Shown in pieces: positions 6,082-29,297 of a stretch of DNA of 64,000 nucleotides (position 1 is the stretch's first letter; each line of letters opens with the position of its first letter). The translations under genes and the position numbers were made by a program. The stretch lies in assembly GCA_025937835.1 (NCBI GenBank), contig JAICQO010000022.1, positions 1 to 64,000 of the forward strand, written 5' to 3'. The notes below the pieces were generated by a model that searched no databases, had not been told where the DNA came from, and saw nothing but the letters and a program-made list of their open reading frames with translations. Source of the stretch: Polyangiaceae bacterium (GTDB lineage Bacteria; Myxococcota_A; Polyangia; Polyangiales; Polyangiaceae).

Positions 6082-9000
6082 TCAAGCGACCAGCACGCGC
6101 TTTCGGGCCAGGGGCGAGATCCGCGCATCGGGGGTCAGAATCCCCCGCAGGTTCAGCGGATCGGCGGCCGAAACGTGGATTGGCTCGCCGGGCCCGCGCC
6201 GGCGCACGCTGCGGAGGAGCGTCACGGCTTCGGGCAGCGCGTATTGTTCACCGTCGAAGCCGGACACGAAGCGCCCGCCGCGCGCCTCGCCCCGGCTCTC
6301 GAGCGTGCGGAAAACGCGCAGCAGATCGCGATACGGGTGCGGCTGCCGCTCGCGGAGCAAGGTCTTTCTGAGCACCACGCCGTAGCGGCGGAGCAGCGTC
6401 CGCGCCATCGCCTCGGCGTCGAGGGGCTCACCCACGTCGTAACGCAGCAAGCTGAAGCGCCCGGCGCTCGCGCTCCGGGGCAGATTGCGCTTCGACACCA
6501 AGAGGCCGCGCAACGCCGCGAACGAATCCGCGGTCGCGAGCCCGCGCGTCACGAGCTCGGCGAGCCCGGCCTCCAGCACGTCTCGCGGTTCCCCGCACGC
6601 ACGCAGCAGCTCTTGCGCGAACATCGCACCCCGCGAGCCGAGCAGGCCGTGCAGCTTGGCCGCGGCCTCGCTCAGGTTCGCGTGGTCGGGCGTGCGCGAC
6701 AGCGCCGCCCAGGCTCCGAGCGTCTCGCGCGGCACCAGACACAGCGGCGTGGACCCGAGCGCGCTCGCGGTGCTGCCCCAGAGCCTGCCCCACGCCACCT
6801 CGCCGGACAGCGTCAGCTCGTCGAGCCACTCGCGCCGATAGTTCTTGATCCGGGCGGGTAAAAGGCTCGACTCCCACGCCCGGGCCGGCGCTTCGAACCC
6901 CGCTAGCTGCTCGATCACCTCGAGCGTGCCGCGCGGCCCCTCGACGCGATACTCGGGATCGACCTTCTGCCAGGCGAGCAGGAAGCGCAAATAGTCCGCG
7001 GCGTTGACGGGCTCGATCTCGCGCCGCAGCCGCTCCAGCGTGTAGCGGTGAATGCGAGCCAGGAGCCGCCGGCTGCACCAACCCGGTCTGCCTTCGAAGC
7101 GCCCGCGCAGCACGAAGCCCTCGCGCTCGAGCTCGAACAAGAGCGGATCGTCGCTGACGATCGGACCCAGCGCCTCGAGCCGCCCGCGCAGCACCTCCTT
7201 CGGGTCGCGCGTCGCCTCGCGCGCGTACCAGCGCTCGCCCTCGCGCACGACGCGGCCCGCCGCCAAGAGCTCCGCGAGCCACGCCGCCCAGGGCTCGGCC
7301 TCGCTCTCCGTCGCGTAGCCCATCCACAGCAGCGCCTCGTGCACCTCTTCCGCGTTGGCCGGGCTGGGAAACGCCTCTTCGCGCACGCGCGCGATCGCCT
7401 CGGGGTCGAGCGCCCCGAGCTCGTCGGCGCTCTTCACGTCGAGCGTGCGGCGCGTGATCACCGCCTGGGTGCGGCGCTCTTCGAGCGGCGCGTCGTCGAG
7501 GAACGCATACGGCGCAGCCGTCAGAATACCGTGGGCGAAGCTCGACGGCGTCGGCGTGTCGACCGCGACGCGCTCGATGCGGCCGTCGCGGAGCCCGTGG
7601 AGGACCTCGATCAGCCCGTCGATGTCCATCGCCTCGCGCAGGCAATCCTCGACGGTCTGGCGCACGATCGGGTGCTCCATCGGCACCTCGATGTCACCCG
7701 GTGGCAGCGTCTCGCCGCACGCCTGCACCTCGGGAAAGCTCGCCGCGAGCAAGTCCTCGGAGCGCATGCGCACGATCGGCGCGGGCGTCTTCTTGCCGGA
7801 GCGCGTGCGCTCGATCAGAAGCGCGCGCGAGGCGTTCCAACGCCAGCGCGTCTTGAACACGGGCGCGGTGAGGATCGCCTGCGTCAATACCTTCTCGACG
7901 CTGTTCGGGTTGAGGTAGTCGAACACCTCCTCGAGCGGGAAGCTGTGCTGCATGCCGAGCGACAGCACGATCGCCTCCTCGTTGGCGGCCGCCTGCAGCT
8001 CGAACCCGAACTGGCGGCAGAAGCGCTTGCGCAGCGCGAGGCCGAAGGCGCGGTTGATGCGGCCGCCGAACGGCGCGTGCACGACCAGCTGCATCCCGCC
8101 GCTCTCGTCGAAGAAGCGCTCGATCACGATCCGCCGCGTGCTGGGCACGGCCCCCAGCGCCCGCACGCCCTCGCCCACGTACTCGGCGAGCTGCGCCGCG
8201 ACCGGCGCGTCGAACTCCGCGGCCAGCGCAGCCGGATCCGCCGCTTTTTCCCGGAGCTCCGCGATCTCGGCCGAGAGCTCGCGCGTGCGCGCCGGGGCCT
8301 CGCCCAGCCAGAACGGGATCGTGGGCGGCGCGCCCTGAGCGTCCGCCACACGCACCACGCCGCCGCTCACGCGTAAGATCCGCCACGAGGTCGTCCCGAG
8401 CTGGAAGATGTCGCCGCGATTCGACTCGATCGCGAAGTCCTCGTTCAGCGTACCGATCTGGTTGCCGTCCGGCTCGAGCACCACTTGATAGTCGGCGTTG
8501 TCGGGGATTGCGCCGCCCGACATCACGGCCGTGAGCCGGGCACGCCGCGTTGCGCGGATCACGCCGCCCACGCCGTCCCGGTGCAACAGCGACCAGCGCT
8601 GTCCCGAGTGCAGCGACACCACGCGATCGAAATCTTCACGCTCGAGCTCGCGGTACGGGTAGGCTCGCCGGAAGCGCTCGAACAGCGCCTGCTCCGACCA
8701 CGGCTCGCTCACACACGCCGCCACCACCTGCTGAGCCAGAATATCGAGCGGGCGTCCCGGCTGCGGCGTTCGGTCCAGCGTACCGCTGCGGATCGAGCGC
8801 AAGAGCGCGGCGGACTCGACCAGCTCGTCGCGAGTCAGCGGGAAAATCCGGCCTTTCGGAGTGCGGTGGACGCCGTGGCCGGCGCGGCCCACGCGCTGCA
8901 ACAAGGTCGCGATCGAGCGCGCCGCGCCGACCTGCACCACCAGATCGATGTCACCGATGTCGATGCCGAGCTCGAGCGACGCGGTCGCGACCAGCGCCCG

Positions 9001-14910: not shown

Positions 14911-16656
14911 TCACTTCCAGTTGACGGTGGCCCAGCCGTTGGCGGGTAGGTCGAACTGTAGGAGCTTGCCGCCGATCGACACCGTCTCTTTCTTGGCGCC
15001 GCCGGAGTTGAACATCGCCACGACCAGCGTGCCGTCCGGGTTCTTGAAGGCCAGCGCGTTGCCGCCCTGGGTCCCGATGCGGGTGGCGCCCGGATCGACG
15101 AACTCGGAGACGTGCCGGAACGCGTAATAGGCCGGCGTGATGTTCAGCTTCTTCGTGTCCTTGTCGACCCAGAGCAGCGCGTTCTGCGGCCAGGGGCGCA
15201 TCGTGTCGAGGTTGTGGCCGTTCTTGTCGAGGATCATGTTCCAGGCGCTGTAGGAGGTCGCGCCCGCGGTGATCCAATCCACGATGAGGCCCCAGCTCTC
15301 GACGCCGTAGGCGTGGTCGTTCGGCGGCGTGGTGGCGTTGAAGGTCGCCATTTCCCACGGGTAATTGCCGCATTTGTGCTCGCTCTGCACGATCGGCAGG
15401 TTCCGCGACTTGAGGCTCGAGATCGAGTTGATCATGTTCCACTGGAGCCCGAAGCCCTTCACGTACTTCATGGTTCCGGCGTCGGCGACCACGGTGCTGA
15501 TGATCGTTCCGTCCTTGCCCGCGTCGGCGTTCGACATGGTGCCGAGGAAGATCTGCGCCGGCACCTGGCGCTCTTCGAAGGTGGGACCCAAGAAGTCGCG
15601 GATGAACTCGTTCATCAAGGCCGCGGTCCACAAACAGCTCGGGTAACGCGTCTCGTAGCCGGGCTCGTTCTGCGGGTGAATGGCCTCGATCTTGATCCCG
15701 ACCTTCGCGTACTCCTCGACGAACTTGGCGAGGTAGAGGGCGTGCGCCTTCAGCGTCTGGTCGTCTTCCTTCATGCTGCCGCCGTCGAAGGCGTTGTTCG
15801 TCTTCATCCAGGTGGGCGGCGTCCACGGGCTCGCCCACAGCCGAACGTCGGGCTTCACGGCGAGCGCGGCCTGGATGTATGGGATCATCGCGCCCTTGTC
15901 GTGCTCGATGGAGAAGCTCTCCATCGCATAATCCCCGGCCTTCTCGTTCAGCGTGTAGCGGGTGAGCCCGTAGTCGCTCGAGCCGATCGGCACGCGACCG
16001 AACGCGAAGCGCGCGCCGTCCACGCCGAACAGCAGGTCGATCGCGAGCTTGCGATCCGACTCGCTGAGCAGCTGGAGCATGGCCCAGCCGACCTCGTTGA
16101 ACGTCCCGCCGAAGCCGTCCCACTTCTGGAAAGTGGTGTTCTCGTTGACGGTGACGCCGGCGCTGCCGCTCGCGACCTCGGTCAGCGTGCCCACCTTCCA
16201 GTACGCGCTCTTTTCGGAGGTCACGAGCTCGGGCTCGACGAACGTCGACGGGGCGCCGCCGGCATCCGGGCTGCCGCCGCTCCCGCTCCCGCTGGCGCCG
16301 GGATTGCCTCCCGGCGCTCCGCCCGTCGCCGTGGGCGCACTTCCACCGGAACCGCCGTTCATCACCGGCGCGCCGCTCGCGCCCGGAGTGCCTCCGTTCG
16401 AGGTCGGCGCACCGCCGGTTGGCGTGTTGGGCGTGCCGCCGGCTGCGCCCGGCGTGCCCGCGTTCGTGCTCGGCTTGCCGGCGTTCGTGCCCGGCGAACC
16501 GCCCATCGCGCTCGGTGCGCCGCCGGTCGACGTCGGGGGTGAGACGCTCGCTCCACCGGTCGGGCCCGGCTCACCGCCGCCCGATTCAGACGAGCTGCAT
16601 GCGAACGGGAGGGTCAACAGCCAAAGGTACGCAGTCCCTGCGAGCGCTTTCTTCAC
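14911..16656 (-). CDS. GH30-family glycosidase, lipid-anchored
   Basis: A 581-residue protein. The signal peptide ends in a lipobox (TLPFAC, Cys20). Residues 22-125 are a long Thr/Ala-Gly-Gly linker, and the catalytic domain follows. GH30 marks are clear: KWDGFGGTFNEVGWAML at the N-terminal edge, LWASPWTPPTWMKTN, acid/base Glu331 in HPQNEP, and nucleophile Glu426 in VQSEHKCGN. The C-terminal 80 residues form the small beta domain typical of the family (VVAMFNSGGAKKETVSIGG). GH30 enzymes hydrolyse beta-glucosyl, beta-xylosyl or beta-glucuronoxylan links with retention. The subfamily cannot be decided by eye. It is the upstream gene of a likely pair with the beta-helix lipoprotein. Confidence 0.93.
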   Translation of the reverse strand: MKKALAGTAYLWLLTLPFACSSSESGGGEPGPTGGASVSPPTSTGGAPSAMGGSPGTNAGKPSTNAGTPGAAGGTPNTPTGGAPTSNGGTPGASGAPVMNGGSGGSAPTATGGAPGGNPGASGSGSGGSPDAGGAPSTFVEPELVTSEKSAYWKVGTLTEVASGSAGVTVNENTTFQKWDGFGGTFNEVGWAMLQLLSESDRKLAIDLLFGVDGARFAFGRVPIGSSDYGLTRYTLNEKAGDYAMESFSIEHDKGAMIPYIQAALAVKPDVRLWASPWTPPTWMKTNNAFDGGSMKEDDQTLKAHALYLAKFVEEYAKVGIKIEAIHPQNEPGYETRYPSCLWTAALMNEFIRDFLGPTFEERQVPAQIFLGTMSNADAGKDGTIISTVVADAGTMKYVKGFGLQWNMINSISSLKSRNLPIVQSEHKCGNYPWEMATFNATTPPNDHAYGVESWGLIVDWITAGATSYSAWNMILDKNGHNLDTMRPWPQNALLWVDKDTKKLNITPAYYAFRHVSEFVDPGATRIGTQGGNALAFKNPDGTLVVAMFNSGGAKKETVSIGGKLLQFDLPANGWATVNWK

Positions 16657-16788: not shown

Positions 16789-17895
16789 GTGCTCCTGGTG
16801 CTCGCGGCCCCCGACTCGAAAGACGCTCTGCAGCGCGAGCTCGCCGTCGCGTTCCCGCTAGCGCAGCGCGAGCTCGAGCCGGGCCTGTTCGCGTGCGAGC
16901 CGGCGTCGGAGTCGCTCCCCTACCTCGCGTACGCTCGCCAGGCGCTGCCGCTCGCGCTTGCGGTCGAGGCCGCCTCGATCCGCGCTTGGGCGGAGCTGAT
17001 CGTCGATGCGGTGGCGGGCGTGCTGCCCGATCAAAAGCCGTGGTCCCTCCACGTGCTGCCGTTCCGGGCCGTTGGCGAGCACACGCGCATGGGGGCGCGG
17101 GCATGGCACAGCCAGGGCCGCGCCGGAGCCCGCGTTTCGCCCGGCCCCGAGCCCGCACCCACGGTCGGTCCCAACCGCTGCCGCCTGATCCGCGAAACCG
17201 TGACGGAGCTGCTCGCCAAGCGCCGCCGCCACCTCGGCCGCCATTTACGCGAGCAGACTCGAGCCTTCTCCGCGGACGAGTCGCTGGTGCAGGTGCTCCT
17301 CACCTCGCTCGAGCACGGCTTCCTGTCCGTCGCGCCGGCTCCGCTCGCGTACCAACAACGTCACCTCGTCTCTCACCTGCCGGGCGGCGAGCAGCCGCTC
17401 GCTTCCGACAAGCAGGCGCCGAGCCGCGCCTTCACCAAGCTCGTCGAAGCCGAAGTGCGACTGGGACGAAAGATCGCGGGCGGCGAGAGCTGCGTCGATC
17501 TCGGGGCGGCCCCGGGAAGCTGGACTTACGTGGCGGTGCAGCGCGGAGCGCGTGTCACGGCCGTCGACCGAGCCGAGCTCCGCGCCGATCTGCTCCTGCA
17601 CCGCCGCGTCCGGTTCCAGCGCGGCGATGCCTTCCGCTTCGAGCCCGAGGCCCCCGTGGATTGGCTGCTCTGCGACGTCATCGCCGAGGCCGAGCGCACG
17701 GCGGAGCTGCTCTTGCGCTGGCTCGAGAACGGCTGGTGCCGCCACTTCGTCGTCACGCTCAAGGTGGACGATAGCGGTAGCGTGCCCTTGCTCGAATCCC
17801 TGAAGCGCGAGCTTCCGCGCCACACCAGCGAGCTCCGTTTGTTGCGCCTCTCCGCCAACAAGAAAGAGGTCTGTGCGTTCGGCGAGCGCACGTAA
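16789..17895 (+). CDS. RlmM-like 2'-O-ribose rRNA methyltransferase
   Basis: A 368-residue protein starting at GTG 16789. The N-terminal 200 residues resemble a THUMP-type RNA-binding region. The C-terminal part is a Rossmann-like RrmJ/FtsJ methyltransferase with the SAM loop DLGAAPGSWT (residues 237-246). All four residues of the K-D-K-E catalytic set are in place: Lys217 (AFTKL), Asp296 (LLCDVIAE), Lys325 (VTLKVDD) and Glu360 (NKKEV). E. coli RlmM has this same architecture and similar length, and methylates the ribose of C2498 in 23S rRNA. The exact target base in this organism is inferred from that similarity. It stands alone between the GH30 gene and the repeat element. Confidence 0.88.
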   Translation: MLLVLAAPDSKDALQRELAVAFPLAQRELEPGLFACEPASESLPYLAYARQALPLALAVEAASIRAWAELIVDAVAGVLPDQKPWSLHVLPFRAVGEHTRMGARAWHSQGRAGARVSPGPEPAPTVGPNRCRLIRETVTELLAKRRRHLGRHLREQTRAFSADESLVQVLLTSLEHGFLSVAPAPLAYQQRHLVSHLPGGEQPLASDKQAPSRAFTKLVEAEVRLGRKIAGGESCVDLGAAPGSWTYVAVQRGARVTAVDRAELRADLLLHRRVRFQRGDAFRFEPEAPVDWLLCDVIAEAERTAELLLRWLENGWCRHFVVTLKVDDSGSVPLLESLKRELPRHTSELRLLRLSANKKEVCAFGERT

Positions 17896-18100: not shown

Positions 18101-18472
18101 CTAGTTCTGGCACTTCGGATAGAAGTCTTCGAAGTCCTTGTTGTTGCAGAAGGCCATGGTGTCCTGGACCTCGACCTTGCAACAGCAGCCGACCTCGCCG
18201 TTCGGGGCGGTGACGAGCTGGCACTGCTGCTGGACGAAGATGGTGCACAGGCCGTCGTGCAGCTCGTGGAAGCCGCTGCGCGCCTCACACGCGACCGGAT
18301 CGTCGAGCTGCGGGAAGCAACAACGGTTCCTGTCTTCGGGTTGGATGGCAAGGCTCGACTCGCCGACTTCTTCGACGGCTTCCGGCACGCTCGCCGGATC
18401 GCCCGACGCGCAACCGAGCGGCAAACACGGCAGGAGCAGCAGCAGACATAGCCATTTTTGGTTCGATTTCAT
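18101..18472 (-). CDS. Small Cys-rich lipoprotein, unknown
   Basis: The ATG at 18472, preceded by a GAGGT ribosome site, gives 123 residues. A strongly hydrophobic signal peptide ends in a lipobox (CLPLGC, Cys21). The mature part holds about nine Cys, including adjacent pairs RCCF and GCCCK, so a disulfide-stabilised small domain is likely. Acidic spacer residues (VPEAVEEVGESS) follow the anchor. I recognise no family. It is divergent from the sigma-factor gene with 152 bases between, so the two may share a promoter region. Confidence 0.72.
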   Translation of the reverse strand: MKSNQKWLCLLLLLPCLPLGCASGDPASVPEAVEEVGESSLAIQPEDRNRCCFPQLDDPVACEARSGFHELHDGLCTIFVQQQCQLVTAPNGEVGCCCKVEVQDTMAFCNNKDFEDFYPKCQN

Positions 18473-18624: not shown

Positions 18625-19290
18625 ATGGCTTCGCAAGCTCTGGTGAAGCGCGCGCTCGCGGGAGATCGCGCGGCGATCGAGGCGCTCGTCGTGGAGCTGA
18701 GCCCCGTCGTTCAGGCCCGCGTCGCGGCCGCGCTGTTTCGCTGCGGGCGCTCCTCGCGTCAGGAACTCGAAGATCTGACCCAGGAAATACTCATGGATTT
18801 GTTCACGGGGGACGGCCGCGTGCTCGCGAGCTGGGAGCCGGAGCGCGGTCTCACCCTAGCCTCGTTCGTCGGCCTCGTGGCTCAGCGTCAGGTGTATTCT
18901 CGACTGCGGAGCCGGCGGCAGAGCCCGTTCACGCAAGAGCCCACGGATCCGAGCGCGCTCGACGCTTCACTGTCCGCCTCCGCGCCGGCTCACGCGGCGG
19001 AAGAACCATTCGCCGCGCGTGAGATGCTGCGCTTGCTGTTCGAACGCCTGCACGCGGAGCTCTCGCCCAAGGCACTCGAGATGTTCTACCGTCTGTACGT
19101 CTGGCAGCAGGAGCCGGAGCGGATCGCGAACGAGACCGGCTCGAAGCTCGACGCGATTTACCAGTGGCGGACCCGGCTGAAGAAGGAGGTCGCCGCGCTC
19201 GAAGCAAGCCTGTCGCGAACGCGTGGCCTGGCCCCGAGCTTCGTGGTCCTCCGCTCTCCAACCCCCGGTGGCTCCGATGCCTCTTCCTGA
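18625..19290 (+). CDS. ECF-like RNA polymerase sigma factor
   Basis: The ATG at 18625 gives 221 residues, beginning with SQALVKRALAGDRAAIEALV, the usual start of region 2 in ECF factors. Region 2 continues through ELEDLTQEILMDLF and LASFVGLVAQRQVYSRLRSR, which bind the core enzyme and the -10 element. Region 4 is SPKALEMFYRLYVWQQEPERIANETGSKLDAIY, a helix-turn-helix for the -35 element. A short extra tail with Pro/Ser follows region 4. The stop overlaps the start of the next gene by 14 bases, so the two should be translated together. It probably directs transcription of its own operon and other genes when released by a membrane partner. Confidence 0.9.
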   Translation: MASQALVKRALAGDRAAIEALVVELSPVVQARVAAALFRCGRSSRQELEDLTQEILMDLFTGDGRVLASWEPERGLTLASFVGLVAQRQVYSRLRSRRQSPFTQEPTDPSALDASLSASAPAHAAEEPFAAREMLRLLFERLHAELSPKALEMFYRLYVWQQEPERIANETGSKLDAIYQWRTRLKKEVAALEASLSRTRGLAPSFVVLRSPTPGGSDASS

Positions 19291-19867
19291 GCAAACCCTC
19301 GCGGAGCTTGCGCGCCTGGCTCGCGAAGACGAGGCGCTCGAGCAGCACTTGCCGCCCCAGCTATCGACGCCGATTTCTGCAGAAAAGACGGCCGCGCTGG
19401 TGGGCGCGATCCACGGCAAGCTCGGCGCCCGCAGCCGGCGCCGCAACTTCCTCGCAGCGGGCGGCGTCGTCGTCGCGATGGCCGCGGGCGTGGCTCTGGT
19501 TATCGCGGTCGGTCGCGAGGGGGATCCGCTTCCGGTCTACGAGGCGCGCGTCGAGGGCGGGCAGCAGAGCGAGCGCTCGAGCGCCCCGCAGAGCGCGCTG
19601 CTGCGGCTGCGCGCTGGCTCGAAGCTGCGGTTCGAGCTTCGTCCGCGCAGCGACTATCCGGAGCCGGTGCACGCGCGAGTCCAGATCCTCGGCGTCGGCA
19701 AGAATCTCGAGATCGACGAGCAGCGCTCGGCGGCCGGCGCGTTGAAGCTCGAGGCCCAGCTCCCCGCGTCGCTGCCAGAACGCGGCGAGCTCGTCGTGAC
19801 CATCGAGCGCGCGAGCTCCTCCGAAGGCGCACGGCGGTTTTCGTGGCCATTCGAGCGCTCTCCGTAG
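19277..19867 (+). CDS. Single-pass membrane protein, putative anti-sigma partner
   Basis: A 196-residue protein starting at ATG 19277 inside the end of the sigma gene. Residues 1-55 are cytoplasmic and helical (TLAELARLAREDEALEQHL). One transmembrane helix spans about residues 58-78 after an Arg cluster (RSRRRN). The remaining 118 residues should be outside, with a beta-rich pattern (SALLRLRAGSKLRFELRP). The layout is that of anti-sigma factors, but the zinc anti-sigma motif (His-x3-Cys-x2-Cys) is absent, so the role rests on topology and gene order. Its end overlaps the CHAT gene by 25 bases. Confidence 0.78.
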   Translation: MPLPEQTLAELARLAREDEALEQHLPPQLSTPISAEKTAALVGAIHGKLGARSRRRNFLAAGGVVVAMAAGVALVIAVGREGDPLPVYEARVEGGQQSERSSAPQSALLRLRAGSKLRFELRPRSDYPEPVHARVQILGVGKNLEIDEQRSAAGALKLEAQLPASLPERGELVVTIERASSSEGARRFSWPFERSP

Positions 19868-22512
19868 CGCTGTTTTGCGTCGCGGGCGCGGTGTCGCCCC
19901 GCGACCAAGGCACGGCGGCTCGGGCGGGCCGGCTCGAGCTCGAGTTCGCGGGCTGCGCGCGGGTGCGGCCGGGCCCGGTCTGCGAGCTTGGCACCGCACG
20001 CGAGATCACGCTCTGGGTGCCCGGCGCGGAGAGGCCGCAATTGGGAGCCGCGGCCAGGGTTCGCAGAGCGAAGCTCGTCGAGTCGGGGTGGCAGCTGCTG
20101 GTCGACGTCGCTCCGAGCGCTCGCGTGCTGCGGGTGCGCGCGGGCGAACGCCGGGCGGACCTCCGCCTCGCAGAGAGCACCGAGCCGGCCCGGCTCCGCG
20201 AGCTCGCAGAGCTGTGGCGGGATGGCCAATGGGAGCGGGTCCGAGCAACGCTCGACGCAGCCGAAGCCGAGCTCGAGGGGCCGGAGCGCGAGCGCATTTC
20301 CGCTTTCCGCGCGCGGCTCGCGCTGCGCGACGGCGACGATGCGCGCGCCGCGAGCGTGCTCGAACGGACCGCGAAGAGCGCGCAAAAGGCCGGATTGCTG
20401 CTCGAAGCGGGGCATGATCGCTTCGCCGCGGCGTACGTCCGCAGCGTGCGCCTCGGGCAATACGAGCGCGCTCGCGTCGAGCTCGACGCCACGGCGGAGC
20501 TCGACGCGGTCCCGGAGGTGCGCGCGCGCGTCGCCTATCACCGCGGCGTCCTCGCGAGAACGACCGGCGACACGCAGGGCGCGCTGACGCACTTTCGCGA
20601 AGCCAGCGTGCGCTCGCGGCGGCTCGACCTCGTCGCGGACGAGCTCACTGCGCGTCAGGAGCTTGCGCTGACGCTGAATCGGCTGCACCGGCACGCCGAG
20701 GCGCTGGCCGAGCAAGAGGCGGTCGTCGCCCGCGACGCCAAGCTGCCGAGCTGCGTAGACTCGCTGCGCTGGGAGAACCTTTCGTGGATCCTGTTGAGCC
20801 AGCCCGAGCCGTCGGTGGAGCGAGCCGCCCTGGCGCTCGATCGCGTCGAACGCCTGCAGTCGCGCTGCCCAGACCCGCTGAGCCGCCGCAACCAGGCGCT
20901 GAATCGCGTGGAGCTCGCGCTGCTGCGCGGAGAGCTGGCGGACGCTGCGCAGCGTCTCGGCGCGCTCGAAGACGACGCCACGGGTCGCAGCACACGGCTC
21001 GCGGCGTGGCAGGCGCTGTACTCCGGCCGGCTCTCGTTGGCTCGGAAGGAGAGCTCGCGTGCTCTCGCAGCCTTCGAACAGGCCGCCGCGCTCGCCGAGA
21101 GCGCCCAGCGTCTGGACTGCAGCTACCTCGCGAACCTCGGGCGCGCTCGCTCGCTCGCAGAACGAGGAGACCCGGACACCGCCGCTGCCTATCTCGAGGC
21201 GGAAGACGCGGTCGACGCCCTGGTGAGAGCGGCGCCGTTCGGACAAGGCCAGCAGCTCACCGCTCTCCAGGCTCAGGAAAGCGCACGAGAGCTCTTGTCG
21301 TTGCTCGTCGAGCAAAAGCGCGTCGCGGACGCCTACGCGCTCACGGTTCGGGCGGCGCGCCGGGCGTGGGCCGCAAACTTCAGGGGCGGTCGCATCAGCG
21401 CGCTGCGCGGGCCGCAAAAGGCGCGCTGGGATCGCGCCGTCGCCGAATACCTGACGCGACGGCAAGCCCTGGAGCGAGCCGCCCAAGACGATTGGAAGCT
21501 GTCGAGCGAAGGCCTCACGCAAACGCGGTTGTCGCGCGCGCTCGAGAATCAACGCCTGGAAAATGCGCTCGCCGAAGCCTACTCACTACTCGCGGACGAG
21601 CCGGTCGAAGAGCTTTCGCGCCCGGGTCAGGACGCGGAGCTCACGCTCGCCCGCGGCAGCGACGGCTGGTTCGCGTTTTTACGTCGCGGCGACGACACCC
21701 CGAGGGTCGAGCGGCTGCAAAACGTCGCGCGTGACCTCGGCGTTGCCCTCGAGCGTTTCGAGCGCGAGAAGCTGCTGGATGCGCCGCTGTTGCGCGTCGT
21801 CGTACCGCCGGAGCTCTCGGCGCTCGACGTCCATGCACTCGAAGTCGGCGGGCAGCCGCTGATCGCGCGTGTTCCCGTCGCCTACAGCTTCGAGCCGGGC
21901 CGCGCCAAGCCGCCGGCGCCGGACGCTCGAAGTGGGCCGGCGCTGGTGCTCGGTGACCCGAACCAGGATTTGCCCTGGGCGTTGGCCGAAGCGCGACGGC
22001 TGTCGCAGCGCCTCGCGGGCGCGGTGTCCCTGTTCGGCGAACGAGTGAGCCGGGGAAGCGTCGAGAGCTACCTGCCGAGCGCGACCTTGCTGCACTTCGC
22101 CGGCCACGCGAGCTCCGGCGGTATCGACGGGCTCGACGGCTCGCTCCACCTTGCCGGCGGACAGCGCCTCTCGCTCGGCGACGTGTTCGCGCTGCGCGGC
22201 GTCCCGGAGTTCGTCGTGCTCTCGGCCTGCACGAGCAGCGTCTCTCACGGCTCTGGCACAGGGCTCGGCATCGGCCAGGCGTTCGTCGCAGCCGGCTCGC
22301 GTGCCGTCGTCGGCGCGAGCCGCAACGTGTCGGACCGGCTCGCTCGCGACTTCACCCAGCGGTTCTACGACGCGCTGCTCGGCGCAAGCTCGAGAGCAGT
22401 ATTACCGCGCGACCACTACGCTTGGGCGAGCGCATTTCGAGTCGCTAGTATGAAAGTGATGAGTGAAGATCCAGGCGCCGACTGGGCGAGTTTGCGGCTG
22501 CTCGTCCCCTGA
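19843..22512 (+). CDS. TPR-CHAT caspase-like cysteine protease with N-terminal signal
   Basis: An 889-residue protein read from GTG 19843, overlapping the upstream gene by 25 bases. Residues 1-18 (AIRALSVALFCVAGAV) form a signal-like hydrophobic stretch. A small beta-rich domain (about 20-100) is followed by helical repeats of TPR type to about residue 500 and a helical linker. The CHAT domain occupies roughly residues 700-889. Its catalytic pair is visible: His755 in LLHFAGHAS and Cys796 in FVVLSACTSS. The CHAT fold is a clan CD peptidase related to caspases and separases. If the signal is real, the protease acts in the periplasm. The context (sigma factor, membrane protein, subtilase) suggests a regulated proteolytic cascade. 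Confidence 0.9.
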   Translation: MAIRALSVALFCVAGAVSPRDQGTAARAGRLELEFAGCARVRPGPVCELGTAREITLWVPGAERPQLGAAARVRRAKLVESGWQLLVDVAPSARVLRVRAGERRADLRLAESTEPARLRELAELWRDGQWERVRATLDAAEAELEGPERERISAFRARLALRDGDDARAASVLERTAKSAQKAGLLLEAGHDRFAAAYVRSVRLGQYERARVELDATAELDAVPEVRARVAYHRGVLARTTGDTQGALTHFREASVRSRRLDLVADELTARQELALTLNRLHRHAEALAEQEAVVARDAKLPSCVDSLRWENLSWILLSQPEPSVERAALALDRVERLQSRCPDPLSRRNQALNRVELALLRGELADAAQRLGALEDDATGRSTRLAAWQALYSGRLSLARKESSRALAAFEQAAALAESAQRLDCSYLANLGRARSLAERGDPDTAAAYLEAEDAVDALVRAAPFGQGQQLTALQAQESARELLSLLVEQKRVADAYALTVRAARRAWAANFRGGRISALRGPQKARWDRAVAEYLTRRQALERAAQDDWKLSSEGLTQTRLSRALENQRLENALAEAYSLLADEPVEELSRPGQDAELTLARGSDGWFAFLRRGDDTPRVERLQNVARDLGVALERFEREKLLDAPLLRVVVPPELSALDVHALEVGGQPLIARVPVAYSFEPGRAKPPAPDARSGPALVLGDPNQDLPWALAEARRLSQRLAGAVSLFGERVSRGSVESYLPSATLLHFAGHASSGGIDGLDGSLHLAGGQRLSLGDVFALRGVPEFVVLSACTSSVSHGSGTGLGIGQAFVAAGSRAVVGASRNVSDRLARDFTQRFYDALLGASSRAVLPRDHYAWASAFRVASMKVMSEDPGADWASLRLLVP

Positions 22513-22610
22513 AACCGCGTGTAATCGACGCACTCGCAGAAAGCTGGTCAGGTCGAACAAGCTGGCGGCGAACACACCATCGCTCGCCGCACATCTACCG
22601 AGGAGAGGCC

Positions 22611-24488
22611 ATGATCTGCCGTCGTCGCACCACTTTATCCGTGATTCTCGTCAGCGTTGCCCTGGGCTGTTCGAGCCAGGACCCGCTCGAAAGCTCCGGC
22701 ACCGCGGAGCTCGGAGCCACGACACCGAAGGTGCTCGAATGTCCGAAGACCAACGTCTTGCTGCGAGTCCCCTACACCACGGCGTGCGCGGAAGAGTATC
22801 CCGGCCACGATGGCTCCTGGATTGGCGGTGCGGTGACCCGAGCGCAAGAAGGCGTGGAAGCTCCGCGCCCGCGCTTCTGTAGCTACTACTGGGACGCGCC
22901 GCGGATCCAACCGGATACCAGCGTCTTGCCGGGCGAAGAAGGCCGGGCCTGGCAGTGGGATTGCGCGCGCGTCGGCGCCCACGGCGCCCGCGAGGACATG
23001 TATGCGGCGCTGTCTGCCCACGGCAAGCACCTGCTCGGGGACGGCTTCAAGTGGACGACGAACACGGAGAGCCCGGTGCGCGTGGCGGTGATCGACACGG
23101 CCGCTGGCACGTGGAGCGACCGCGACAACAACCCGCACGGCAAGGCCGTCGGCACCCTGGTACGCGACACCGCCTGCCTCGACCCGACGAGCTGCAAGGT
23201 CCAGGTCGAGAATTACCTCGGACTGCCGCTGATCCGCGTGATGAACACCCCGGGTCGGGTCGTGATCCGTCAGGATTTGGTGCGGGGCGGCGCCTTCGGC
23301 TCGCATGGCGATCTCGCTCGAGCCATCGTCCGAGCGGTCGACGACAACCCCACCCCGAACGAGCCGACCCCGACCGTGATCAACCTGAGCGTCGCTTACG
23401 ACAGCGACGAGCTGCTCGCGACCGGCGAGCCCGACCCGAACGACTTCGAGAACGCCGTCGTGCTCGAGGCGCTGGAGTACGCGCGCTGCCACGGCGCGCT
23501 GATCCTCGCGGCCGCGGGCAACGGGCGTGTGCCGGCGATCGACGATCAAAAGCCAGCGCTGCCGGCGCGTTGGACAGAGCGGCGAGCCCTGGACGCCGCG
23601 ACCTGCAGCGCTCGCTACAACGTGACCCCGGCCGTGAGCGGCGGCCCGCTGCTCTACGCGGTGAGCGGCGTGGATTTCGCGGCCAAGCCGCTCCTGAACA
23701 CGCGCGGACAGGGGCTGTCCGTGCTCACCGCCCTCGGCTTCGCCGTCGTCCGCGACGACCCGAACGGCGGCTACACGCGCATTCTCTCCGGCAGCTCGAT
23801 GGCCACCGCGACCGTCAGCGGCGTCGCGGCTGCGCTCTGGAGCCACGCGCCCGTGGGAACCACGCCGGACGCGATCATCCGCGAGCTCTACGCCGCGAGC
23901 CCGGAGATTTCCGCGCCCGCAGACTTCCCTCCGCTTCAGTCCAGCTTGCCGCCGAAGTTCTTCGACGCCGCTCGACGCATCACGCGCTGCTCGATTGCCA
24001 GCACCAGCTTCGGCGTCGCCAAGTGCACGACCGTGCCCCCCGTGACGACGGTGCCGGACGACGCGGTGCCCGATCTGCCGGAGGATGCTGTCGATGGCAC
24101 GAAGGTCGACGATTACGCTCCGGAACCCGGGATCTACCCGCTGGATTTCCCGTGGCTCCGCCCGCAGCCCGAGGGCGAGCCCGGCTGCACGTCGTGCAGC
24201 ATCAAGCTCGCGCTGAACCGCATCGACCTGATCCTTCGTTCGGGCTTCAGCGTGAAGAGCAACACGCTCCGGCTACTGGCCAAGAAGTCGAACGTGGCCG
24301 GCATCGCCAGCCTGACCTCTGGTGAAACACTCGACGTCGTCGCCGACTTCGCGACCGAGTCGGCCCCTTACACGGTGGACCTCAGCCCCGCCGAGCTCGG
24401 CACGACCACCGCTGCGGAGCTCTCCTATCAAATCCTCGTGGATGGCGTGACCGTGGATCTGAGCGAATCGGTGCTGCTGGAACCGTAG
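22611..24488 (+). CDS. Subtilisin-like (S8) serine protease lipoprotein
   Basis: A 625-residue protein with a strong ribosome site (GAGGAGAG) before ATG 22611. The signal peptide ends in a lipobox (SVALGC, Cys20). A spacer and Cys-containing segment precede the protease domain. The catalytic triad is complete: Asp162 (AVIDTA), His176 (NPHGKAVG) and Ser396 (SGSSMATA). The oxyanion Asn is Asn304 (AAAGNG). Asp and His are only 14 residues apart, closer than in most subtilases. The C-terminal 200 residues include a Pro/Asp-rich hinge and a beta domain (LTSGETLDVVADF). It begins 98 bases after the CHAT gene on the same strand. It should be anchored at the envelope or outer surface. Confidence 0.9.
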   Translation: MICRRRTTLSVILVSVALGCSSQDPLESSGTAELGATTPKVLECPKTNVLLRVPYTTACAEEYPGHDGSWIGGAVTRAQEGVEAPRPRFCSYYWDAPRIQPDTSVLPGEEGRAWQWDCARVGAHGAREDMYAALSAHGKHLLGDGFKWTTNTESPVRVAVIDTAAGTWSDRDNNPHGKAVGTLVRDTACLDPTSCKVQVENYLGLPLIRVMNTPGRVVIRQDLVRGGAFGSHGDLARAIVRAVDDNPTPNEPTPTVINLSVAYDSDELLATGEPDPNDFENAVVLEALEYARCHGALILAAAGNGRVPAIDDQKPALPARWTERRALDAATCSARYNVTPAVSGGPLLYAVSGVDFAAKPLLNTRGQGLSVLTALGFAVVRDDPNGGYTRILSGSSMATATVSGVAAALWSHAPVGTTPDAIIRELYAASPEISAPADFPPLQSSLPPKFFDAARRITRCSIASTSFGVAKCTTVPPVTTVPDDAVPDLPEDAVDGTKVDDYAPEPGIYPLDFPWLRPQPEGEPGCTSCSIKLALNRIDLILRSGFSVKSNTLRLLAKKSNVAGIASLTSGETLDVVADFATESAPYTVDLSPAELGTTTAAELSYQILVDGVTVDLSESVLLEP

Positions 24489-27332: not shown

Positions 27333-27788
27333 ATGGACGTCAACGAAGACTTCGTAGACATCGCTCGCGCGTTCCTCGATACCCACGTCGAGTTCGTGAT
27401 CGTCGGCGCTTACGCGCTCGCGGCGCACGGGTTCCCCCGGATGACGGGCGACATCGACTTCCTGGTGCGGCCATCCCCGGAGAACGCAGCGCGGGTGTTT
27501 CGCGCCCTCGCAGCCTTCGGTGCTCCAGTCAGCGCGCACGGCGTGAGCGCGCAGGACTTCGCGGTCGAGGGCAAGGTCTACCAGCTCGGCCTGCCGCCTC
27601 GACGCATCGACATCCTCACGTCCATCTCTGGGGTCTCCTTCGATGAAGCGATCGCGGAGGCGATCGAAGGCCACTTGGGTCCCGTAAAAGTCCGCTTCAT
27701 CGGCAAGGCGGCCATGGCCAGGAACAAGCTCGCCTCCGGGCGGCCCAAAGACCTGGTCGACGCCCAGCTGTTGTTGGACCCCGATTAG
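27333..27788 (+). CDS. Nucleotidyltransferase-fold protein (DUF6036-like)
   Basis: A 151-residue protein from ATG 27333. The nucleotidyltransferase core appears as FVIVGAYALAAHG, then MTGDIDFLVRP, where Asp-x-Asp provides metal ligands, and later RIDILTSISG, where Asp supplies the third carboxylate. The last segment, RNKLASGRPKDLVDAQLL, is the conserved Lys/Arg-Asp tail of the MNT/AbiEii-like and DUF6036 groups. Members transfer nucleotides to protein or tRNA targets, or to small molecules. It has a 5-base gap from the upstream small protein gene and is 69 bases upstream of the papain-like gene. The substrate is not known. Confidence 0.85.
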   Translation: MDVNEDFVDIARAFLDTHVEFVIVGAYALAAHGFPRMTGDIDFLVRPSPENAARVFRALAAFGAPVSAHGVSAQDFAVEGKVYQLGLPPRRIDILTSISGVSFDEAIAEAIEGHLGPVKVRFIGKAAMARNKLASGRPKDLVDAQLLLDPD

Positions 27789-27857: not shown

Positions 27858-29297
27858 ATGACCCAAAACAACCGTCCGTTTCAGTCGACTCTCCTCAGCG
27901 GCAGCATTTTACTCGCGCAGCTCGTCGGCTCCGCGGCGCCCGCCTTCGCCCAATCCCGGTTCGTCCAGGACGAACACGACAGCGTTCGGCGCGCGGTCGA
28001 TTTCCTCAAAGCCAACCCGCAGTCCCAGCAACACGGAGCGGACGCGCGCCTCTTGCAGCAAGCAGAGGCCGCCCTCGCCGCCAAGAACCTGACCCCGCTC
28101 GCCAGCACCAAGGGCAACCGCGTCAACCTCGGCTCGAAGGTGATCGAGCTTCAATCGCCGTATCAGAGCCTGGCCGAGCTCGGCTCTTCCCTACGTCTGC
28201 AAGCCGACCGCAAGAACCTCGAGAAGCACTACCGCCTCGCGCACTGGGTCGCGAGCGCGAACGTGAAGATCCAGTACCCAGACCCCGTGCAGCTCCCCAC
28301 GATGAGCACCCAGGCGATTCGAGTCGAGCTCGACCAGCTGATCCACGACGCGACGCTGAACAGCGTTTACCATCACTTGTTCGGCGTGACCGTTCCCCCG
28401 AGCGCCGCTGCCTGCGCCCTCGAAAAAGGCTACGAAATGGGCACTGACGGCGTCAATGGCACCTGCGGGAGCTACGCCGCGAACGGCATCATGCGCACGG
28501 TCGATTTCCCGCTCAAGAACGACCTCACGTGCGTCCGCGACCAGGGCCGCCGCGGGACTTGCGTGGCGTTCGGCTCCACCGCGGCGATCGAGTCTGCCGT
28601 GCACGTCTTCAACGGCAACAAGGTCAACCTCTCCGAGCAGCACGCCTACTGGTACGGGGAGACGACGGTGGGCTTCAGCGGCCGCTACACCGACGGCCTC
28701 AACACCGTCGACTTCCTACAGGAGCTCGATTCGTCGGGCTACGAGCTCCCGCGAGAGAAGATCTGGAACTACAATCCGTCCCTGCTGCGCAGTGCCCAAG
28801 CCGGCAACGTCTACCCGAACTCCTGTGTCGGCTACTCCGGCGAAGAGTGCAGCGACTACGCCTTCCAGAGCGACGAGATCGCCGTCGGCGCGGTATTCAC
28901 GCATCCGAACCCGATGCCCAACGCGGCCGCGTTCGGCCTCTCCGAAGCCACCGAAATCGGTACCAGCGCCGGCAACCTCGACTTCGGCAAGCTGCTGCTC
29001 GATTACGACATCCCGCTGGTCGTCGCCGTGGACGTCACCAATCGCTTCGTGAGCCCGAGCGCCGACGGCTACGTCACCTACGTGCCCGGGGAGAGCTCAC
29101 TCGGCGGTCACGCGATGGAGGTCGTCGGCTGGGTCGAAAACACGGACCTCCCTGCCGCCGCGCCCGACGGCTCCGGCGGCGGCTACTTCGTGCTCAAGAA
29201 TTCCTGGGGCGAAGACGCCGGCGACTGCGGCTACTACTACGCGCCCTTCGACTACCTGCTCGAATACGGCCGCAGCCTGACGGCAGTCACCCTTTAG
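27858..29297 (+). CDS. Secreted papain-like cysteine protease (C1 family)
   Basis: A 479-residue protein. A Sec signal ends near AAPAFAQS (about residue 32). A long propeptide-like region to about residue 215 contains helices (HRRAVDFLKANPQ-like stretch, LEKHYRLAHWVASAN). The mature protease shows the papain order: Gln229 of the oxyanion hole and Cys235 in DQGRRGTCVAFGS, then NLSEQHAYWY. His418 is in LGGHAMEVVGW and Asn448 in LKNSWGEDAGDCGYYY. All catalytic residues are intact. It should be an inactive precursor exported to the periplasm or outside. It lies 69 bases after the nucleotidyltransferase gene; a functional link is not obvious. The 235 bases after it carry no convincing gene. Confidence 0.92.
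   Translation: MTQNNRPFQSTLLSGSILLAQLVGSAAPAFAQSRFVQDEHDSVRRAVDFLKANPQSQQHGADARLLQQAEAALAAKNLTPLASTKGNRVNLGSKVIELQSPYQSLAELGSSLRLQADRKNLEKHYRLAHWVASANVKIQYPDPVQLPTMSTQAIRVELDQLIHDATLNSVYHHLFGVTVPPSAAACALEKGYEMGTDGVNGTCGSYAANGIMRTVDFPLKNDLTCVRDQGRRGTCVAFGSTAAIESAVHVFNGNKVNLSEQHAYWYGETTVGFSGRYTDGLNTVDFLQELDSSGYELPREKIWNYNPSLLRSAQAGNVYPNSCVGYSGEECSDYAFQSDEIAVGAVFTHPNPMPNAAAFGLSEATEIGTSAGNLDFGKLLLDYDIPLVVAVDVTNRFVSPSADGYVTYVPGESSLGGHAMEVVGWVENTDLPAAAPDGSGGGYFVLKNSWGEDAGDCGYYYAPFDYLLEYGRSLTAVTL

Follow-up and report, generated by a model that had tools for sequence, protein, structure and literature searches.

A four-gene cassette in a Polyangiaceae bacterium appears to encode a split form of the DdvS/DdvA-type outside-in switch, along with an S8/CxxC lipoprotein dedicated to it; in this switch, a CHAT protease would free a sigma factor by cutting its membrane anti-sigma factor. 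We put the probability of this reading at roughly 60%. The genes encode a sigma factor (P0001), a membrane protein (P0002), a TPR-CHAT protein (P0003), and an S8 lipoprotein (P0004), and occupy positions 18625 to 24488 on one strand (+) of the window, by which we mean the whole 64,000-nucleotide (nt) stretch of DNA that was analyzed. The first and second genes overlap by 14 nt and the second and third by 25 nt, and a gap of 98 nt separates the third from the fourth. An original prediction made from the sequence alone had given these coordinates and spacings, as well as the domains and catalytic residues of the two proteases, and all were reproduced here (Table 1). A search of the region for sigma-70-like promoters found none, and the number of terminator-like sites there (7, versus 3.9 expected) is uninformative.

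Table 1. Genes of the cassette and features of their products, by position in the window.
Feature	Position	Strand	Basis
ECF-type sigma factor P0001, 221 aa	18625-19290	+	TIGR02937, 6e-8; family profile to 9isn, 3.6e-12
One-helix membrane protein P0002, putative anti-sigma factor, 196 aa	19277-19867	+	Adjoins sigma in 30/33 sigma-first loci
P0002 transmembrane segment, residues ~57-78	19445-19510	+	Hydrophobic run after RSRRR; position conserved in alignment
P0002 conserved extracytoplasmic domain, LPxYxxxxxGG...LRP	19526-19864	+	Alignments
Exported (predicted) TPR-CHAT caspase-like protease P0003, 889 aa	19843-22512	+	Pfam CHAT, 2.6e-27; AlphaFold2 pLDDT 87
P0003 signal-like N-terminus, MAIRALSVALFCVAGAVS	19843-19902	+	Heuristic and family lipobox statistics
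P0003 N-terminal beta-sandwich, paired Cys (AGCxxVxxGPxC)	19930-20175	+	Structure model, alignment
P0003 TPR superhelix, residues 116-581	20188-21585	+	Structure model
P0003 CHAT domain; His755 codon 22105-22107, Cys796 codon 22228-22230	21634-22509	+	Pfam; invariant dyad
S8 subtilase lipoprotein P0004, 625 aa; lipobox VALGC, Cys20	22611-24488	+	Pfam Peptidase_S8, 5.3e-12
P0004 C-terminal PQPxxxxCxxC beta tail	24165-24485	+	38/41 cassette S8s vs 0/17 controls

P0001 has the makeup of an ECF sigma factor, with regions 2 and 4 only and a match to the ECF model TIGR02937 over residues 20 to 188 that, at 6e-8, lies below the model's cut-off. Its match to Pfam Sigma70_r2 (2.6e-4) is also below cut-off. 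Relatives of P0001 that are 36 to 42% identical to it were assembled into a 16-sequence alignment, and the resulting profile matches the solved ECF sigma factor 9isn at 3.6e-12 over positions 7 to 196.

The adjacent membrane protein was matched by no Pfam family, those of anti-sigma factors included, and the same holds for the 28 members of its family that were searched. The best PDB match of the family profile is the anti-sigma factor CnrY, at a nonsignificant E value of 1.2. P0002 has no cysteines and the zinc motif of anti-sigma factors is absent, a motif that is optional in Class I anti-sigma domains (PMC7406223). By our own signal heuristic, 5/67 family members have a signal-like N-terminus and none has a lipobox. 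From its gene pairing, topology, and homologues, we infer that P0002 is a membrane anti-sigma factor.

The AlphaFold2 model of P0003 (pLDDT 87) consists of a beta-sandwich (residues 30 to 111), a TPR region (116 to 581), and a CHAT domain (598 to 889) whose His755/Cys796 dyad is invariant in CHAT alignments of both 15 and 22 sequences. The N-terminus of the protein is hydrophobic and signal-like but carries no lipobox, and no start codon lies farther upstream in the frame than the GTG at 19843. Among relatives of P0003, 55/69 have signal-like N-termini and 32/69 have a lipobox, compared with 3/68 and 0/68 of the sigma factors by the same heuristic. Background genes of these regions score as 48% signal-like and 20% with a lipobox, and the telling contrast is thus that with the sigma factor and the membrane protein. 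P0003, like its relatives, is therefore predicted to be exported, a point that the original prediction had set as a check.

A Foldseek search with the P0003 model returned DdvA as the best match (E = 1.4e-13), with Csx29 and separase next. With VIA-align, P0003 was superimposed on Csx29 with a Z score of 28.9 (600 residues, rmsd 9.2), on separase with a Z score of 27.1, and on DdvA with a Z score of 24.6 (627 residues, rmsd 6.3, 19% identity). The DdvA alignment begins at P0003 residue 36, within the N-terminal beta domain. The 22-sequence CHAT profile also matches the DdvA sequence, at 3.6e-12, with the DdvA His and Cys aligned to the dyad.

These matches connect the cassette to the DdvS/DdvA system of Myxococcus xanthus (structures 8rot and 8rw5), which likewise pairs an ECF sigma factor with a membrane anti-sigma factor and in which DdvA shares the beta-TPR-CHAT fold of P0003. 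DdvA has its TPR-CHAT part on the outside of the cytoplasm, and a 2024 paper on the protein reportedly proposed autoproteolysis ahead of intramembrane cleavage. DdvS is active once DdvA has been inactivated, by a signal that was given as unknown in 2015 (PMC4374960). The cassette shares with this system an ECF sigma factor encoded with a one-helix membrane protein, as well as a TPR-CHAT protein of the DdvA fold (by model) that is extracytoplasmic (by prediction). It differs in that DdvA carries the anti-sigma part, the transmembrane segment, and the TPR-CHAT part on one fused chain, whereas the window has separate anti-sigma and CHAT genes. DdvA-like fused proteins of one further genome (G216) have an N-terminal HxxxCxxC motif, unlike the cysteine-free P0002, as well as a transmembrane segment, and one of them (at L178) has a sigma-like gene directly upstream. 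The same genome holds another split form (L179), in which a different ECF-like sigma factor and a short membrane protein are encoded divergently from a 745-aa CHAT lipoprotein.

The principle of a sigma factor, an anti-sigma factor, and an extracytoplasmic TPR-CHAT protein is already known from DdvS/DdvA, and Csx29-Csx30-CASP-sigma is a functional precedent for the arrangement, whose exact combination with a subtilase lipoprotein the original prediction could not name. In the literature searched, no S8/CxxC lipoprotein is described alongside DdvA, and the split arrangement with such a lipoprotein of its own did not turn up either; with the main DdvA papers outside that literature, this is weak evidence of novelty. 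In the CASP/Craspase system (Cas7-11, Csx29, Csx30, and CASP-sigma), a TPR-CHAT protein is likewise genetically linked to an ECF-like sigma factor and its inhibitor, and cleavage of Csx30 has been proposed to lift the inhibition of sigma (PMC10028731). Csx29 resembles P0003 in fold (Z up to 28.9) and in having a TPR-CHAT architecture with a His/Cys dyad. It is, however, intracellular and RNA guided, whereas signal-like N-termini and lipoboxes in the P0003 family predict a protease outside the cytoplasm, and no direct repeats of at least 22 nt within 100 nt, as in a CRISPR array, were found at positions 8000 to 36000 of the window; among the nearby genes as annotated, no Cas protein came up. 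Outside-in control of an ECF sigma factor is also known from the RseA/DegS/RseP system, in which the membrane anti-sigma factor is cut in steps (PMC8103513) and where the site-1 protease is the PDZ-containing serine protease DegS/HtrA and not, like the candidate here, a caspase-like CHAT protein.

Full-length relatives of P0003, with about 30 to 38% identity, occur throughout the order and the phylum. We examined 59 CHAT loci in Myxococcota, with genes taken from a simple codon-based caller and annotated by profiles built here. Within 7 kb of the CHAT gene, a sigma gene is present in 47 loci, the membrane protein in 52 (in five of these as a fusion to CHAT), and in 37 there is an S8 gene, for the most part immediately 3' of CHAT. 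A count of 113 S8 matches over 14 of the genomes corresponds to about 0.85 per Mb; at that density, the binomial probability of such S8 proximity by chance is about 3e-56, a value that ignores kinship and should be read as "not chance" only. Across 379 genomes, 36 have both the membrane protein and CHAT, three the membrane protein alone, and two CHAT alone (Fisher P of about 2e-44, kinship again ignored). An independent search that started from the sigma factor used a 5-row alignment, the 16-row version having no stretch that was conserved enough; in the 33 loci found, the membrane protein adjoins sigma in 30 and a CHAT gene is present in 23. These loci include Sorangium cellulosum So ce26 and So0157-2, Polyangium fumosum, and Acidobacteriota metagenome-assembled genomes (MAGs) (Thermoanaerobaculum and Holophagales).

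Conservation of gene order had been set beforehand as a check, and it extends from Polyangiales to other Myxococcota and to the Acidobacteriota MAGs. A scan of genome contigs with P0003 as the sole query found nothing. Three genomes of the same genus have no P0003 match, a patchiness that would fit an ordinary ECF pair standing beside exported proteases by accident. Conservation over two phyla, co-occurrence at the genome level, and natural fusions make that very improbable, and we rejected it on the strength of the conserved gene order. In one genome (G031), the sigma factor and membrane protein are encoded on one contig and the sole strong CHAT relative on another (L109 and L130), an arrangement which suggests that the components are able to function when encoded apart.

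The fusions of the membrane protein to CHAT are found in five Polyangium-type loci (L044, L045, L085, L105, and L111) and correspond to one change on a tree of 72 distinct CHAT proteins, that is, a single origin. A phmmer search of the PDB with one fused sequence returned nothing. Because the nearest Foldseek relative is DdvA and because these five fusions join the membrane protein to CHAT, control of the sigma factor from outside is the best reading of the cassette. The original suggestion that an outside proteolytic event governs an inside sigma factor thus remains the preferred one; the S8 domain is not obligatory. In the five fused loci, a gene for a conserved secreted protein (about 955 aa) also stands between CHAT and S8, and neither Pfam nor PADLOC matched the copy at L045.

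The cassette might instead be an output module, in which the sigma factor induces its own operon and both exported proteases are effectors in envelope defense, predation, or cell death, with CHAT exerting no control over sigma. Such a module would account for the co-directional, overlapping genes and for the divergent orientation of CHAT relative to the sigma/membrane pair in some loci, and DdvS controls an antiphage defense island in M. xanthus (PMC12288465). We nonetheless consider it unlikely: the fusions and the DdvA fold match place CHAT in the anti-sigma complex, no shared bipartite promoter motif emerged upstream of 68 sigma genes (counts are near those of shuffled controls), no CRISPR array was seen at positions 8000 to 36000, and the PADLOC matches of flanking genes are weak or at the level of fold only.

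The fourth protein had been described as a lipid-anchored S8 protease, and its VALGC lipobox is indeed clear. P0004 scores 46.1 bits against PF00082 (cut-off, 21.8) and has the catalytic triad and the oxyanion Asn; Asp162, His176, Asn304, and Ser396 are invariant across eight S8 sequences. By our heuristic, 38/43 of the cassette S8 proteins have a signal-like N-terminus and 31/43 have a lipobox, which predicts export for them too. The P0004 structure model is poor (pLDDT 52), and its fold matches serve only to call the core S8-like.

A C-terminal CxxC-beta segment, mostly PQPxxxxCxxC followed by about 90 to 110 residues, is present in 38 of the 41 cassette S8 proteins and in none of 17 control S8 proteins of the same genomes. 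The tail is all-beta in the low-confidence P0004 model. Where the S8 gene is missing, a small lipoprotein with a comparable CxxC tail often replaces it: the following co-directional gene frequently codes for a short protein whose CxxC lies 50 to 125 residues from the end, compared with 3.2% of background genes. The tail profile is significant in several of these small proteins (L034_g6, 2.8e-6; L122_g12, 3.5e-6; and L033_g6, 7e-5). Among the 72 distinct CHAT proteins, 44 are accompanied by an S8 protein, 13 by a small CxxC protein, and 15 by neither an S8 protein nor a recognized CxxC neighbor. S8 presence requires at least 10 changes on the CHAT tree. Since S8 has been gained or lost often and small CxxC proteins stand in S8-less loci, the tail outlives the protease domain. 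The constant part of the fourth protein is therefore the CxxC beta tail, and the S8 domain is usual but replaceable. One 1,084-aa open reading frame (L093_g1) scores for both S8 and sigma models and is either a real fusion or an artifact of gene calling or a frameshift.

These counts bear on whether the S8 lipoprotein might itself be the site-1 protease that acts on the anti-sigma factor, with TPR-CHAT mainly a scaffold or sensor. S8 enzymes have a precedent as site-1 proteases in animals, and here the S8 gene lies directly downstream in most loci and its catalytic residues are kept. Yet 28 of the 72 distinct CHAT loci have no nearby S8 gene, and all aligned members keep the His/Cys dyad of CHAT, which together make this role for S8 quite improbable.

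In the DdvA-type switch that we favor, P0002 would hold the ECF sigma factor P0001 at the inner membrane, and P0003 would work from the outer face in concert with P0002's extracytoplasmic domain, through a contact that we infer. By analogy with DdvA, RseA, and Csx29/Csx30, a signal would let CHAT cleave the anti-sigma factor on the outside of the membrane, and further proteolysis would then free sigma and switch on its genes. Against this reading speak the lack of a significant anti-sigma family match for P0002, the missing lipobox of P0003, the 15 CHAT proteins with neither kind of partner, the failure of any shared promoter motif to emerge, and the single-chain form of DdvA. P0004 would be the extracytoplasmic lipoprotein partner of the cassette: P0003 or P0002 is the probable docking site of its CxxC beta tail, and an S8 domain would be its usual, replaceable working part. 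It could deliver the signal, serve as a CHAT substrate, or be an output, and we slightly favor a role as input or co-sensor over one as output. More tentatively, the cassette may be a two-protease switch in which the S8/CxxC lipoprotein is the trigger or substrate partner of the anti-sigma-cutting CHAT and the tail a portable docking module.

A conserved lipoprotein encoded beside a split DdvA-like system is a concrete candidate for its input. If the switch operates as proposed, caspase-like proteolytic signaling, known from CRISPR-guided complexes in the cytoplasm, would reach the cell envelope as well, and a two-protease version would mirror the Craspase pathway there. The PQPxxxxCxxC tail would be a new domain; as a portable docking module, it would allow varied lipoproteins to feed one switch, whether or not they have a protease domain.

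Several genes flank the cassette. Divergent from the sigma gene, positions 18101 to 18472 (-) encode a small Cys-rich lipoprotein (MKSNQKWLC...LGCASG) with no Pfam match. The DdvA-like loci L177 and L178 also have divergent small lipoproteins, whose sequences look unrelated to it. Farther upstream are a glycosyl hydrolase of family 30 with a lipoprotein-like N-terminus (14911 to 16656, -; Pfam, 1.1e-38) and an FtsJ-like methyltransferase (16789 to 17895, +) that matches the PADLOC mad2 model at 7.9e-13, probably through the shared methyltransferase fold. Downstream lie genes for an AbiEii-like nucleotidyltransferase (27333 to 27788, +; 3.8e-5) and a papain-family C1 protease whose N-terminus is signal-like (27858 to 29297, +; 1.6e-13).
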